From Pseudomonas sp. LS.1a (lineage in GTDB: Bacteria > Pseudomonadota > Gammaproteobacteria > Pseudomonadales > Pseudomonadaceae), in NCBI RefSeq assembly GCF_022533585.1, contig NZ_CP092827.1:497001-561000 (forward strand): a stretch of DNA of 64,000 nt. The letters run 5' to 3'. Within the stretch, counting starts at the first letter, position 1, and each line of letters begins with the position of its first letter. The translations under genes and the position numbers were made by a program. Below, piece after piece: positions 35,215-44,691 of the stretch. The notes under the pieces were generated by a model, which did not search any database, was not told the origin of the DNA, and saw only the letters and a list, made by a program, of their open reading frames with translations.

Positions 35215-35284
35215 TCAGGCAACACAGCGCCTTCAGCTGACCCATGTCATCGCACCTTCGCGATTCTTGGCTAGTCTTACCTGT

Positions 35285-35307
35285 TGGCGGCCATCAATTG
35301 GCCGCCA
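35285..35307. promoter_or_regulatory. Perfect palindrome upstream of fdnG
   Basis: TGGCGGCCA (35285-35293) and TGGCCGCCA (35299-35307) are perfect 9-bp inverted arms around TCAAT, 63 bp before the formate dehydrogenase start. No T tract follows, so it may be an operator or a leader hairpin rather than a terminator. No ANR/FNR box or convincing sigma70 or sigma54 promoter was found in this gap. Confidence 0.4.
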
Positions 35308-35369
35308 CCGTGACTACCAAGAGGCGCCGGCCATGTTCCGTGCGTCCACCACCTGATCAGGAGTGCACG

Positions 35370-38300
35370 ATGGACCTGAACCGTCGGCAGTTCTTCAAGG
35401 TCGCCGCCGTCGGCCTTGGAGGCTCGAGCCTTGCGGCGTTGGGCATGGCCCCGACACCCGCATTCGCCGAGCAGGTGCGTCACTTCAAGCTGGCGCATAC
35501 CAAAGAAACCCGTAACACCTGCCCCTACTGCTCGGTCGGCTGCGGCCTGATCATGTACAGCCAGGGCGATGCGGGCAAGAACGTCAAACAGAACATCATC
35601 CATATCGAAGGTGACGCCGACCACCCGGTCAACCGCGGCACCCTCTGCCCGAAAGGCGCCGGCCTGCTGGACTTCATCCACAGCCCGAGCCGCCTGCAGT
35701 ACCCCGAGGTACGCAAGCCGGGCAGCAAGGAGTGGGTGCGAGTCAGCTGGGACGAGGCGCTCGATCGCGTCGCCGACCTGATGAAGCAGGACCGCGACGC
35801 CAACTTCATCGAAAAGAACGCCCAGGGGCAAACGGTCAACCGCTGGCTAACCACCGGTTTTCTCGCTGCTTCCGCCGCCTCCAGCGAGGCCGGCTACCTG
35901 ACCCACAAGGTCATCCGCGCAACAGGCATGCTGGGGTTCGATAACCAGGCTCGTGTCTGACATGGCCCGACGGTGGCAAGTCTTGCCCCGACGTACGGCC
36001 GTGGCGCCATGACCAACCACTGGTCCGATATCGCCAACGCGAATCTGGTCCTGGTGATGGGTGGCAACGCAGCAGAAGCGCATCCGTGCGGCTTCAAGTG
36101 GGTGACCGAGGCCAAGGCGCACAACAAGGCGCGGCTGATCGTGGTCGACCCGCGGTTTACCCGTACCGCTTCGGTGGCGGACTACTACGCACCGATTCGT
36201 ACCGGTACCGACATCGCCTTCATGGGCGGGCTGATCAATTACCTGCTGAGCAACGACAAGATCCAGCACGAGTACGTGCGCAACTACACCGACGTGTCGT
36301 TCATCGTCAAAGAGAACTATGGCTTCGAGGATGGCCTGTTCAGCGGCTATGACGAGGCCAAGCGTGTGTATGCCGACAAGTCCGGCTGGGGTTATGAACT
36401 GGGTGAGGACGGTTTTGCCAAGGTCGACCCGACCTTGCAGCACCCGCGCTGCGTGTTCCAGCTGATGAAGCAGCACTACAGCCGCTATACCCCGGAACTG
36501 GCGAGCATGACCTGTGGCATGCCGCAGGACGCCATGCTGAAGATCTGGGAAGAGATCGCCACCTGCTCGGTACCGGGCAAGACCATGACGATCCTCTACG
36601 CGCTCGGCTGGACGCAGCACTCGATCGGCGCACAGATCATCCGCAGTGCGGCCATGGTCCAGTTGCTGCTGGGCAACGTCGGCATGCCCGGTGGCGGGGT
36701 CAACGCCTTGCGCGGGCACTCCAACATCCAGGGCCTGACCGACCTCGGCCTGCTGTCCAACTCGCTGCCGGGTTACCTGACCTTGGCTGGCGATGCCGAG
36801 CAGGACTACGCCGCCTACATCGACAAGCGCGCCTCCAAACCGCTGCGCCCAGGGCAACTGTCGTACTGGCAGAACTACGGCAAGTTCCACGTCAGCCTGA
36901 TGAAGGCCTGGTATGGCGCCAACGCTACGGCAGAAAACAACTGGGGCTACGACTGGCTGCCCAAGCTCGACGTGCCGGCCTACGACGTGCTGCGCATGTT
37001 CGAGATGATGGGCCAGGGCAAGGTCAACGGCTACATGTGCCAGGGCTTCAACCCGATTGCCGCGCTGCCGGACAAGAACCGCGTCACCGCAGCCCTGGGC
37101 AAGCTCAAGTGGCTGGTGATCATGGACCCGCTGGCCACCGAGACCTCGGAGTTCTGGCGCAACGTCGGGCCGTTCAACGATGTCGACACGGCCAACATCC
37201 AGACCGAAGTGATCCGCCTGCCCACCACCTGCTTCGCCGAGGAAGACGGCTCGCTGGTCAACAGCAGCCGCTGGCTGCAGTGGCACTGGAAGGGCGCCGA
37301 CGGCCCGGGCGAGACCCGCACCGACGTGCACATCATGAGCGAGCTGTTCCTGCGTCTGCGCCGACGCTACCAGGCCGAGGGCGGTGCCTACCCTGACGCG
37401 CTGATGAACATCAACTGGCCATACAAGATCCCTGAAGAGCCATCCCCGGAGGAACTGGCCAAGGAAATGAACGGCTGGGCGGTGACCGACCTCACCGACC
37501 CGACTGGCGCAGTGCTCAAGGCCGGCCAGCAACTGGCGGGCTTTGGCCAGCTCAAGGACGATGGCAGCACCGCGTCCGGCTGCTGGATCTTCGCCGGCAG
37601 CTGGACCGAGCAGGGCAACCAGATGGCCCGCCGCGACAACAGCGACCCATACGGCATGCACCAGGTGCAGAACTGGGCCTGGGCCTGGCCAGCCAACCGC
37701 CGCATCCTCTACAACCGTGCTTCCAGCGACCCGCAAGGCAAACCCTGGGACCCGGAGAAGAAGCGCCTGGTATGGTGGAACGGCAAGGCCTGGACCGGTA
37801 CCGACGTGCCCGACTTCAAGGTCGACTCGCCACCCGAGGCGGGGATGAACCCGTTCATCATGAACCCCGAAGGCGTGGCGCGGTTCTTCGCCATCGACAA
37901 GATGGCCGAAGGCCCGTTCCCCGAGCACTACGAGCCGTTCGAGACGCCGATTGGCATCAACCCGCTGCACCCGCAGAACAAGAAGGCCACCAGCAACCCG
38001 GCCGGGCGGGTCTTCGACTCGGTGTGGGACACCCTGGGCAAGCACGACGAGTTCCCGTATGCGGCGACCACGTACCGGCTGACCGAGCACTTCCACTTCT
38101 GGAGCAAGCATTGCCGCCTCAACGCCATTGCCCAGCCCGAGCAGTTCGTCGAAATCGGCGAGGTGCTGGCCAACGAGAAGGGTATCAAGGCCGGTGACCG
38201 GGTGCGGGTGTCGAGCAAGCGCGGGCACATCGAGGCGGTGGCGGTGGTGACCAAGCGGATTCGCCCGCTCAAGGTCAACAACCAGACCGTGCACCAGATC

Positions 38301-38438
38301 GGCATTCCGCTGCACTGGGGCTTCACCGGGGCTACGCGGCATGGCTACCTGACCAACACCCTGGTGCCTTTCCTGGGTGACGGCAATACCCAGACGCCAG
38401 AGTCCAAGTCGTTCCTCGTCAAAGTGGAGAAACTCTGA
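35370..38438 (+). CDS. fdnG: Formate dehydrogenase alpha subunit, selenocysteine-containing
   Basis: Encodes a 1022-residue molybdopterin-containing formate dehydrogenase catalytic subunit read through an in-frame TGA at 35958-35960, which gives selenocysteine 197, one residue from the E. coli FdnG position. A twin-arginine signal is present (RRQFFK at 5-10, then a hydrophobic stretch to AFA at 33). The 4Fe-4S cysteines are C51, C54, C58 and C93. After Sec come H198 and [20 protein letters not shown], the family active site. A SECIS hairpin follows the TGA. It is the first gene of fdnG-fdoH-fdoI-fdhE and probably faces the periplasm. It could equally be named fdoG. Confidence 0.97.
35958..35992 (+). 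promoter_or_regulatory. UGA codon and bacterial SECIS element
   Basis: Counting the T of TGA (35958) as 1, the hairpin has a bulged T at 17 (35974), an upper stem GGCA (35975-35978) with TGCC (35984-35987), and a loop AGTCT in which G is 23 and T is 24 (35980-35981). The lower stem is GG/CC (35972-35973 with 35988-35989). Bulged U17 and loop G23-U24 are exactly the SelB contacts known for the E. coli fdhF element. Confidence 0.93.
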
Positions 38439-39388
38439 TGGCCAGCCAAGACATCATCGCCCGCTCGGCCACCACCACCGTACCGCCTTCGGTACGCCAG
38501 CAGCAGGAAGTCGCCAAGCTGATCGACACCACCAAGTGCATCGGCTGCAAGGCCTGCCAGGTGGCGTGTTCGGAGTGGAACGAACTGCGTGACGAGGTCG
38601 GCCACAACCACGGCACCTATGACAACCCCCAGGACCTCACCGCCGAGACCTGGACCCTGATGCGCTTCACCGAGCATGAGCGCGACGACGGCAACCTGGA
38701 GTGGCTGATTCGCAAGGACGGCTGCATGCACTGCGCCGAGCCAGGTTGCCTGAAGGCCTGCCCGAGCCCGGGGGCGATCATCAAGCACGCCAACGGCATC
38801 GTCGACTTCAACCAGGACCACTGTATCGGTTGCGGCTACTGCATCACCGGCTGCCCGTTCAACATCCCGCGCATCTCGCAGAAGGACCACAAGGCGTACA
38901 AGTGCACCCTGTGTTCCGACCGCGTGACCGTGGGCCTGGAGCCGGCCTGCGTGAAAACCTGCCCGACCGGGGCGATCGTGTTCGGCAGCAAGGACGAGAT
39001 GAAAGTGCATGCCGCCGAGCGCATCGTCGACCTCAAGTCGCGCGGCTATGACAACGCCGGGCTGTACGACCCGCACGGCGTCGGTGGCACCCATGTGATG
39101 TATGTGCTGCACCATGCCGACACGCCGAAACTGTACGCCGGCCTGCCGGATCAGCCGGTGATCAGCCCGCTGGTGGGGCTGTGGAAAGGCTTCACCAAGC
39201 CGCTGGCGCTGCTGGCCATGGGCGCGGCGGTGCTGGCCGGGTTCTTCCACTATGTGCGGGTCGGGCCACAGCGGGTGGAGGAGGACGAACGCCCGACACC
39301 GCCGGATGAAAGCGTGCATCAGGTGGACCCGTCGGTCCATGTCTATGATCCGGCCAAGCCCGGTGGGCAAGGGGAGCAGCGACCATGA
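38438..39388 (+). CDS. fdoH: Formate dehydrogenase iron-sulfur (beta) subunit
   Basis: Encodes a 316-residue electron-transfer subunit with four 4Fe-4S clusters. Four cysteine groups are visible, including [43 protein letters not shown] and CTLCSDRV...[10 protein letters not shown] single C-terminal membrane helix ([18 protein letters not shown], about 260-280) anchors it, as in E. coli FdnH/FdoH. The ATG overlaps the fdnG stop by one base and its end overlaps fdoI by 4 nt. Confidence 0.97.
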
Positions 39389-40041
39389 ACGACAACAAAC
39401 CCATCCTGCGTTACAACGCCAACGAGCGCAGCAACCACTGGGTCGTCGCGATCCTGTTCATCCTGGCTGGCCTGTCGGGGCTGGCGCTGTTCCATCCGGC
39501 GCTGTTCTGGCTCAGCAACCTGTTCGGCGGTGGGCCGTGGACAGGCATCCTGCACCCCTTCATCGGGGTGGCGATGTTCGTGTTCTTCCTCGGCCTGGTG
39601 CTGCGTTTCTGGCGCGCCAACTTCATCACCGCCAACGACCGCCTGTGGCTGCGCCGCGTGGACCGGGTGATGCTCAACAAGGAGGAGGGTGTGCCGCCGA
39701 TTGGCAAGTACAACGCCGGGCAGAAGCTGTTGTTCTGGACCCTGCTGGCGTGCATGCTGGTTCTGCTGGTCAGCGGTGTGGTGATCTGGCGCGCCTACTT
39801 CAGCCATTGGTTCGGCATCGAGGTCATTCGCCTGTCCGCGCTGCTCCACGCCCTGGCGGCGTTCGTGCTGATCCTCAGCATCATCGTGCACATCTACGCC
39901 GGCATCTGGATCAAGGGCTCGATCGGCGCCATGCTGCATGGCTGGGTCAGCCGCGCCTGGGCGCGCAAGCACCATGAGTTGTGGTACCGCGAAGTGACCG
40001 GTGACAAGACGCCGGGCAATCACGGACGAAAAGAAGGATGA
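39385..40041 (+). CDS. fdoI: Formate dehydrogenase cytochrome b556 subunit
   Basis: Encodes a 218-residue membrane subunit that passes electrons to quinone. It has four predicted helices and histidines suited to bind two hemes b, such as those in [23 protein letters not shown] and [21 protein letters not shown]. The C terminus ([19 protein letters not shown]) matches the FdnI/FdoI family. It completes the three-subunit respiratory formate dehydrogenase. Confidence 0.96.
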
Positions 40042-40045
40042 GCGC

Positions 40046-40966
40046 TTGAGCACGATACTCGAACCCGGGCAGATCGAAGCGTCGGCGGTGATGCCGCCGT
40101 TTCTGCACCTGCCCCCCGCCAACCTGTTCGAACTGCGGGCCGCGCGCCTGGAGCAGCTGGCCGAGGGCAATGCCCTTGGCGAATACCTGAAGCTGGTGGC
40201 CCGCTTGTGCCGCATCCAGCAGCAGCTTGTGGATAACCCGCCCGCTGGCATGCCTGTGGCCGAGGAGCGTCAACGCCTGTGCATAAGTCATGGTTTGCCG
40301 CCGCTGGCGGCGGATAGCCTGGTGCGTGAAGGGCCGTGGCTGGTCTGGTTGCAGGCCTTGCTCGAGCACTTCAGCGCGCAAACCAGCGGTCCGTTGGGTG
40401 AGGCACTGCAAGCCCTGCGTGGCAGCGACGACAATCAGCGCAAGGGCTGGGGCATTGCCTTGCTCGCCGGCCAGTACGATGCAGTGCCCGCAGCGCTGGT
40501 GCCGTTCATTGGGGCGGCCTTGCAGGCGGCCTGGTCCAGTTGGTTGCTGGCGCTGCCCGCGCCAGAGCTCAAGCCCGCCGGCAGCCTGGCCCAGTGCCCG
40601 GCCTGCGGCTCGCCGGCGATGGCCGGGGTGGTGCGCAACCGTGGCAAGCACAATGGCCTGCGCTACCTGGCCTGTTCGCTGTGTGCCTGTGAATGGCATG
40701 TAGTGCGGGTCAAGTGCGTCTACTGCGAGTCGAGCAAGGACCTGCGCTACACCAGCCTCGACGATGACCGCCATGCGCCGGGCAAGGCGCCGCTGCGTGC
40801 CGAGTGCTGCCCGGCGTGCGAAAGCTACCTGAAGCAGAACTACCTGGAAAACGATGCGGCGGCCGAGCCGCTGGCCGACGACCTGGCCAGCCTGGCGCTG
40901 GACATTCGCCTGGACGAGGAGGGCTTCCATCGGTTGGCACCGAACCTGATGCTTGCGCCTGGGTAG
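40046..40966 (+). CDS. fdhE: Formate dehydrogenase accessory protein FdhE
   Basis: Encodes a 306-residue cytoplasmic rubredoxin-like maturation protein needed for active formate dehydrogenase. The start was set at TTG 40046 because AAGGA lies about 9 nt upstream and the ATG overlapping the fdoI stop reads into a stop after three codons. CxxC motifs are visible in CPACGS, CSLC, CVYC and CPAC. It lies 4 nt after fdoI, in the same operon, as in E. coli fdoGHI-fdhE. Confidence 0.95.
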   Translation: MSTILEPGQIEASAVMPPFLHLPPANLFELRAARLEQLAEGNALGEYLKLVARLCRIQQQLVDNPPAGMPVAEERQRLCISHGLPPLAADSLVREGPWLVWLQALLEHFSAQTSGPLGEALQALRGSDDNQRKGWGIALLAGQYDAVPAALVPFIGAALQAAWSSWLLALPAPELKPAGSLAQCPACGSPAMAGVVRNRGKHNGLRYLACSLCACEWHVVRVKCVYCESSKDLRYTSLDDDRHAPGKAPLRAECCPACESYLKQNYLENDAAAEPLADDLASLALDIRLDEEGFHRLAPNLMLAPG

Positions 40967-41003
40967 TGGGTGAGTGTCTACACTGTAAGACCGAGTCGCC
41001 TTC

Positions 41004-41085
41004 TTCGCGGGTAAACCCGCCCCCACAGGTACCGCGCAAGCTTCAAAAGCTGCGCGGGCCTTGTGGGAGCGGGTTCCCCCGCGAA
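41004..41085. repeat. REP pair between fdhE and selA
   Basis: Arms at 41004-41028 and 41062-41085 share the GGGAGCGGG-type core with small mismatches. The spacer contains CCGCGC...GCGCGG complementarity. It separates the formate dehydrogenase genes from selA without an obvious T-tract terminator, so readthrough into selA remains possible. Confidence 0.8.
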
Positions 41086-41120
41086 GAGGCCAGTACAGAC
41101 AACGGATCAGTCCAAGGTAG

Positions 41121-44473
<3,353 letters not shown>

Positions 44474-44479
44474 GTTCAA

Positions 44480-44575
44480 GGAAGGCAATCGCGCCCGGTG
44501 GCGCGGCCGGGCTTCAAACCCGGTTGGGGACGGCAGCCGTTCCCGGGCAGGTTCGACTCCCGCTGCCTTCCGCCA
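44480..44575 (+). tRNA. selC: tRNA-Sec (anticodon TCA)
   Basis: A 96-nt tRNA with encoded CCA. The 8-bp acceptor stem pairs GGAAGGCA with TGCCTTCC, one pair longer than normal tRNAs. The anticodon stem CCGGG/CCCGG holds the loop CTTCAAA, anticodon TCA, which reads UGA. A long extra arm (GGACGGC...GCCGTTCC) and a T arm with GGTTCGACTCCC follow. It starts 6 nt after selB, so it is probably cut from the selAB transcript. A run of six T directly follows CCA. Confidence 0.97.
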
Positions 44576-44590
44576 TTTTTTACTGGCCCA

Positions 44591-44671
44591 TTCGCGGGCA
44601 AGCCCGCTCCCACAGGACTTCACAGCCTTCAAGGGCAGTGCTGTACCTGTGGGAGCGGGCTTGCCCGCGAA
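44591..44671. repeat. REP pair after selC
   Basis: Perfect 25-bp inverted arms at 44591-44615 and 44647-44671 with the GGGAGCGGGCTTGCCCGCG core. It lies between selC and the convergent asparaginase gene and is a likely transcript end for both. Confidence 0.9.
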
Positions 44672-44691
44672 TAGGCCCTGATGGGTGAAAG

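Follow-up and report, generated by a model that had tools for sequence, protein, structure and literature searches.

The gene for the alpha subunit of a formate dehydrogenase in Pseudomonas sp. LS.1a carries a UGA triplet inside its reading frame, and the question raised by this locus is how that triplet is read. It lies at 35958 of the window, by which we mean the whole stretch of 64,000 nucleotides that was analysed, corresponding to positions 497001-561000 of a single contig of 5.75 Mb; all positions below are those of the window unless the contig or another locus, genome or plasmid is named. From the reading frame, the RNA that follows it, the neighbouring genes and comparison across genomes, this UGA almost certainly encodes selenocysteine (Sec) in a formate dehydrogenase of the membrane-bound FdnG/FdoG kind.

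An in-frame UGA in fdnG

The internal TGA is codon 197, as the preliminary description of this DNA had stated, and is in phase with an ATG at 35370. Once this codon is read through, the frame encodes 1022 residues and stays open up to a TGA at 38436-38438, with no second internal stop. The product matches the formate dehydrogenase-N alpha profile TIGR01553 at 1464 bits (cut-off 814.2) over profile positions 2-1009 of 1009, and contains Fe4S4, molybdopterin and dinucleotide-binding domains (Pfam accessions in Table 1). At its N-terminus it carries RRQFFK, which we take to be a twin-arginine-like signal. When compared with FdnG/FdoG proteins, as the preliminary description had suggested, residue 197 falls opposite the X (non-standard residue) of E. 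coli FdnG (PDB 1KQF chain A; E=0 over residues 1-1021). The UGA therefore sits at the active-site position of 1KQF, where homologues in the genus sample that lack it encode cysteine (13 of 13). This alignment, the TIGR01553 score and the SECIS_3 match described below all support the earlier claim of a Sec codon in a formate dehydrogenase alpha gene. Past the terminal TGA, an Rfam scan of the window matched no SECIS element, and this second UGA is accordingly taken to be a true stop.

Table 1. Features of the fdnG-selC region, in window coordinates
Feature	Position	Strand	Evidence
fdnG, formate dehydrogenase-N alpha, predicted Sec197	35370..38438	+	TIGR01553; Pfam PF04879, PF00384, PF01568; 1KQF_A
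SECIS element (Rfam SECIS_3) with the lower helix immediately 3' of the UGA	35955..36013	+	78.1 bits, cut-off 63
In-frame UGA, codon 197, predicted to be read as selenocysteine	35958..35960	+	Frame; alignment with 1KQF_A X
Upper stem-loop of SECIS; bulged U17 at 35974, G23-U24 at 35980-35981	35972..35989	+	Fold and comparison
Terminal UGA of fdnG, true stop	38436..38438	+	Frame end; SECIS match absent 3'
Formate dehydrogenase beta subunit (iron-sulfur), fdnH type	38438..39388	+	TIGR01582 458.1 bits, cut-off 334.7
Formate dehydrogenase gamma subunit (cytochrome b), fdnI type	39385..40041	+	TIGR01583 193.9 bits, cut-off 115.85
fdhE accessory protein	40001..40966	+	TIGR01562 355.3 bits, cut-off 187.65, from residue 18
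selA, L-seryl-tRNA(Sec) selenium transferase	41127..42554	+	TIGR00474 604.8 bits, cut-off 267.9
selB, selenocysteine-specific elongation factor	42551..44473	+	TIGR00475 453.3 bits, cut-off 242.25, from ORF residue 15
tRNA-Sec (selC), anticodon UCA	44480..44575	+	ARAGORN; Rfam RF01852 79 bits, cut-off 47

It had also been predicted that gene finders would split the gene at this codon, which holds only in part. A mechanical translation table 11 list of open reading frames indeed does so, giving 35244-35960 and 35973-38438, but in a public record a P. putida plasmid homologue with an internal TGA at codon 197 and the same 41 bases from the TGA on is recorded as one 3066-base coding sequence, and E. 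coli fdnG is likewise annotated as a single coding sequence. The locus is of use for annotation, and it offers a natural comparison within one genus between Sec genes with a constrained hairpin and Cys genes without that constraint.

A SECIS hairpin follows the UGA

The SECIS_3 match on the coding strand (78.1 bits; E = 9.2e-17 for the whole window) covers model positions 1-59 with the UGA in register. It is the sole SECIS match above cut-off in the window, and a genome-wide search returned one SECIS_3 match at E <= 0.001, that at fdnG. With the U of the UGA counted as position 1, position 17 is U and positions 23-24 are GU. In the minimum-energy fold of 35958-35997, U17 is bulged out, flanked by paired positions 14-16 and 18-22, and G23-U24-C25 form the apical loop; the structure is kept under sequence change, as detailed below. 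Base count and fold thus bear out the bulged U at 17 and the G-U at 23-24 in the preliminary description, and its proposed match to the SelB-contact bases of E. coli fdhF also holds, since U17, G23 and U24 stand equally distant from the UGA there. According to the available text of a review (PMC8659212), these three are positions without free variation, and U17 and G23 are SelB binding sites.

Folding energy provided no evidence (z = -0.47, with 56 of 200 shuffles equally or more stable), and conservation tests were therefore used in its place. The window has 1891 TGA triplets, counting both strands; 15 of them are followed by U17 and G23U24, and TGA 35958 alone has in addition all seven tested upper-stem pairs. 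The second-best match, a TGA at 43648 within selB with 6 of 7 pairs, was rejected; its coordinate puts it outside the selB frame.

E. coli fdnG and fdoG resemble the gene analysed here: their UGA falls at the corresponding residue (numbered 196), the flanking peptide is identical, and U17 and G23U24 are present. They differ in that the stem here is GC-richer, with a predicted fold of -11.6 as compared to -6.2 kcal/mol. E. coli fdhF encodes an enzyme of another subfamily (formate dehydrogenase H), and its minimum-energy fold pairs otherwise below the upper stem. The element shares 46 of 59 bases with E. coli fdnG and 41 of 59 with fdhF, and its Rfam family is SECIS_3; on these grounds it is nearer the fdnG/fdoG type than fdhF.

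Silent sites and base pairs of the hairpin are conserved

Synonymous variation was calculated for 44 of the genus's 84 Sec genes and for 12 of its 13 Cys homologues, the thirteenth (genome G076) being in two pieces. Across codons 198-209 the 44 Sec genes averaged 0.057, as compared to a gene mean of 0.300. All of the seven lowest of 915 12-codon windows overlap the hairpin codons, and 0 of 20000 random draws were as low, these draws ignoring relatedness and neighbour effects. A subset of 12 Sec genes gave a similar result (0.063 at the hairpin codons versus a gene mean of 0.346), whereas the corresponding codons of the 12 Cys homologues varied more than their genes as a whole (0.445 versus 0.304; rank 833 of 883). 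Ser204 is AGT and Leu205 is CTT in 44 of 44 Sec genes, codons that serve for 2 of 49 serines and 3 of 79 leucines in the window's fdnG. The UGA itself is codon 197 in all 44 genes read of the 84. Every one of 91 Sec rows, some of which represent one gene twice, retains both U17 and G23-U24. Taken alone, U17 is weak evidence: a conserved Val codon has it as its middle base, and T also stands there in each of the 12 full-length Cys homologues from the genus.

Of 29 distinct SECIS sequences that were collected, 18 were used to examine base pairing. All seven pairs of the upper helix are kept in 100% of cells, including two pairs at which both sides have changed: columns 21/33, from G-C to A-U in two sequences, and columns 24/30, from A-U to C-G in one. 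At 21/33 neither substitution alters the protein (Val GTG/GTA and Ala GCC/GCT). The number of double-changed pairs was reached in 9 of 500 shuffles, and neither the number of such cells nor the covariation score was reached in any (0 of 500). When partners were shifted by 1 to 3 columns, 27 to 48% of cells remained paired, as compared to 91.7% in the true register. The lower helix is 85.2% paired, and among the 18 sequences it has no pair with a change on both sides.

The selenium machinery lies beside the gene

Seven genes run in one direction in the order fdnG, fdnH, fdnI, fdhE, selA, selB and tRNA-Sec at 44480 (Table 1). The true start of fdhE is probably downstream of 40001, and a selB start at 42551 is inferred in place of the mechanical ORF start at 42509. 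SelB residues 16-646 align with SelB of PDB 5LZB, the C-terminal winged helix included, and winged-helix domains were also matched separately. The fourth component, selD, lies away from the block at contig positions 924548-925465 and has no internal stop; to judge from its sequence, the adjoining frame is presumably mnmH/ybbB. With selA, selB, tRNA-Sec and selD all in the genome, the set for decoding Sec is complete.

This arrangement has been described previously. In the available text of Zhang et al. 2006 (PMC1794560), selA-selB-selC beside fdhA is the Sec module of Pseudomonadales, in which FdhA is the sole selenoprotein and selD is paired with ybbB; the gene neighbourhood here is identical, and as far as that text goes no departure from it was found in this genome. 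A 2016 survey, in the part available, counts 1276 Sec formate dehydrogenases across 822 organisms (PMC5029168). Since these two papers describe such cases, the preliminary observation is a correct identification of a known kind: it is real, rightly read and ordinary.

The components co-occur across the genus

An identical set of 84 of 199 genus genomes contains a UGA-bearing fdnG, a SECIS_3 match over cut-off and a SelB over cut-off, and tRNA-Sec is above cut-off in 84 of these 84. None of the four components is present in 113 of the 199. Borderline tRNA-Sec matches in two module-less genomes, G194 (48.6 bits) and G014 (47.7 bits; cut-off 47), were taken as false. Because the genes form one block and the genomes one genus, co-occurrence and low variation partly reflect shared ancestry. 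In a wider sample of the class, SECIS_3 was found in 8 of 274 genomes, the window's own counted.

Sub-threshold SECIS_3 matches (28.8-48.2 bits) are the sole kind in 11 of 199 genomes. Those at the 12 full-length Cys genes of the genus were rejected as real SECIS elements and are read as echoes of the protein sequence, because 23-24 is not GU there; further sub-threshold matches lie in G069, G082, G187 and G076.

Several single genomes stand out. G062 has three over-cut-off tRNA-Sec genes, two of which (locus L090, 897-992 and 5792-5887) each lie ~400 bases or less from a C4 antisense RNA; the extra genes are perhaps phage or satellite copies. G105 has a second, weaker tRNA-Sec (53.3 bits). 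The fdnG of G111 (L105) has an extra in-frame TGA at codon 638, which is Trp in the window's gene, from mutation or sequencing error. In three genomes the alpha gene is divided between two pieces that overlap and are in different frames: a Sec gene in G007 (C8 4797-7885) and G034 (C1 4099967-4103028), and a Cys gene in G076 (C313 297-3343). The G076 gene was rejected as UGA-bearing, since it has Cys at the site and its TGA is codon 214 of its first piece, beyond an apparent frame change.

Selenocysteine decoding and its alternatives

The codon, the hairpin with its conserved register, the machinery and the coupling across genomes can all be read from the sequences. That the UGA is a nonsense mutation or sequencing error, the gene being broken and the hairpin a leftover, would fit the fact that table 11 ORF calling stops at TGA 197. 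This is extremely improbable, as the TGA recurs in fdnG of 84 of 199 genus genomes and stands at codon 197 in all 44 read, the silent positions of the hairpin are constant, the machinery is intact and there is no other internal stop. A C after the UGA makes for a leaky context, which would favour selenium-independent suppression by a near-cognate tRNA inserting, for example, Trp. We give this reading next to no credence: homologues that lack the UGA encode Cys, not Trp, at the site (13 of 13 from the genus sample, 4 of 4 read in the family sample), U17 and G23-U24 are present in every one of the 91 Sec rows, and across the 199 genomes no UGA gene occurs without SelB and tRNA-Sec.

A third alternative accepts the hairpin as functional but supposes that this strain's gene stays silent or marginal, Sec being rarely inserted. 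A scan for a sigma-70-like promoter consensus found 0, which could be counted in its favour, but with 0.8 expected by chance the scan is uninformative; more generally, promoter and terminator scans gave nothing beyond chance. Conservation of the frame and upper stem across the genus argues for use under some condition, and we consider a silent gene quite unlikely.

Under selenocysteine decoding, the events at this UGA can be modelled on known relatives. SelA and SelD would charge tRNA-Sec with selenocysteine, and SelB would bring the Sec-tRNA to the ribosome, its C-terminal winged helix gripping bulged U17 and G23-U24 of the hairpin immediately 3' of the UGA, such that Sec-tRNA would be delivered at the UGA in place of release factor 2. 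As in its homologue 1KQF, Sec197 would be a ligand of the active-site molybdenum in formate oxidation, from which electrons would pass through the beta iron-sulfur subunit and the gamma cytochrome b to the quinone pool.

Cysteine homologues and a second Sec class

Cys-type homologues, 60-62% identical, were found in 13 of 199 genus genomes (12 plus G076), 5 of which also have a Sec gene. All 12 full-length genes lack GU at 23-24, and where Sec genes have Ser204 they encode Ala (11) or Gly (1). One of the four Cys homologues read from the family sample (L145) does have GU, and G23-U24 is therefore an imperfect separator of Sec and Cys genes. E. coli FdnG is 66.1-69.6% identical to the 12 Cys genes and 62.1-65.9% to the 44 Sec genes. 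In quick unrooted protein trees, whose Cys members were L073-L084 and L143-L146 (L137 left out), the Cys genes and the E. coli pair stand opposite the Pseudomonas Sec genes with a support of 1.0.

Among the 148 genomes of the family sample, 20 of those listed carry a second UGA-bearing class of formate dehydrogenase alpha genes, 61-65% identical. The five read (L138-L142) belong to other genera in the family; their UGA is codon 194 of the stretch retrieved, they encode Gly in place of Ser204, and GU is kept in 5 of 5. By this comparison of sequences, the RNA seems to hold GU and to leave the protein free for Ser or Gly. These five genes join the Pseudomonas Sec side of the tree. Derivation of the Cys genes from this second Sec class was therefore not supported, and by their placement the Cys genes look unlike offspring of either Sec class. 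As far as its available text goes, PMC1794560 reports Sec-to-Cys changes in FdhA and proposes that the Pseudomonadales Sec module, grouping with alpha- and beta-proteobacteria, may have come by transfer; the Cys/Sec picture here is in line with both.

A broader reading, which we put forward tentatively and would not favour over its opposite, is that fdnGHI-fdhE-selA-selB-selC is a self-contained, all-or-none, single-selenoprotein module still circulating in pseudomonads, partly via conjugative plasmids, to which some lineages may add a separate Cys enzyme nearer E. coli FdnG/FdoG than the local Sec enzyme. If true, a selenium-dependent and a selenium-independent isoform would occur within one cell.

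A plasmid copy and other observations

The closest annotated plasmid match to the window is from P. putida. In P. putida WBC-3 the module is found complete, from UGA-bearing fdnG to tRNA-Sec (L136, 2558-11881), on the 46 kb plasmid NZ_CP142112.1. This plasmid is typed as conjugative, and a Tn3-family transposase lies ~1 kb downstream of the module. Its FdnG falls among the Pseudomonas Sec copies in the tree.

Within the window, the Rfam scan also matched a Pseudomonas rpsL leader. Palindromes lie at 41000-41089, in the fdhE-selA gap, and at 44583-44679, past tRNA-Sec, and both drew weak matches to microRNA models on both strands. These matches (MIR1882 and mir-3198) are below cut-off and were rejected; the intergenic palindromes beneath them are, we presume, REP-type repeats.
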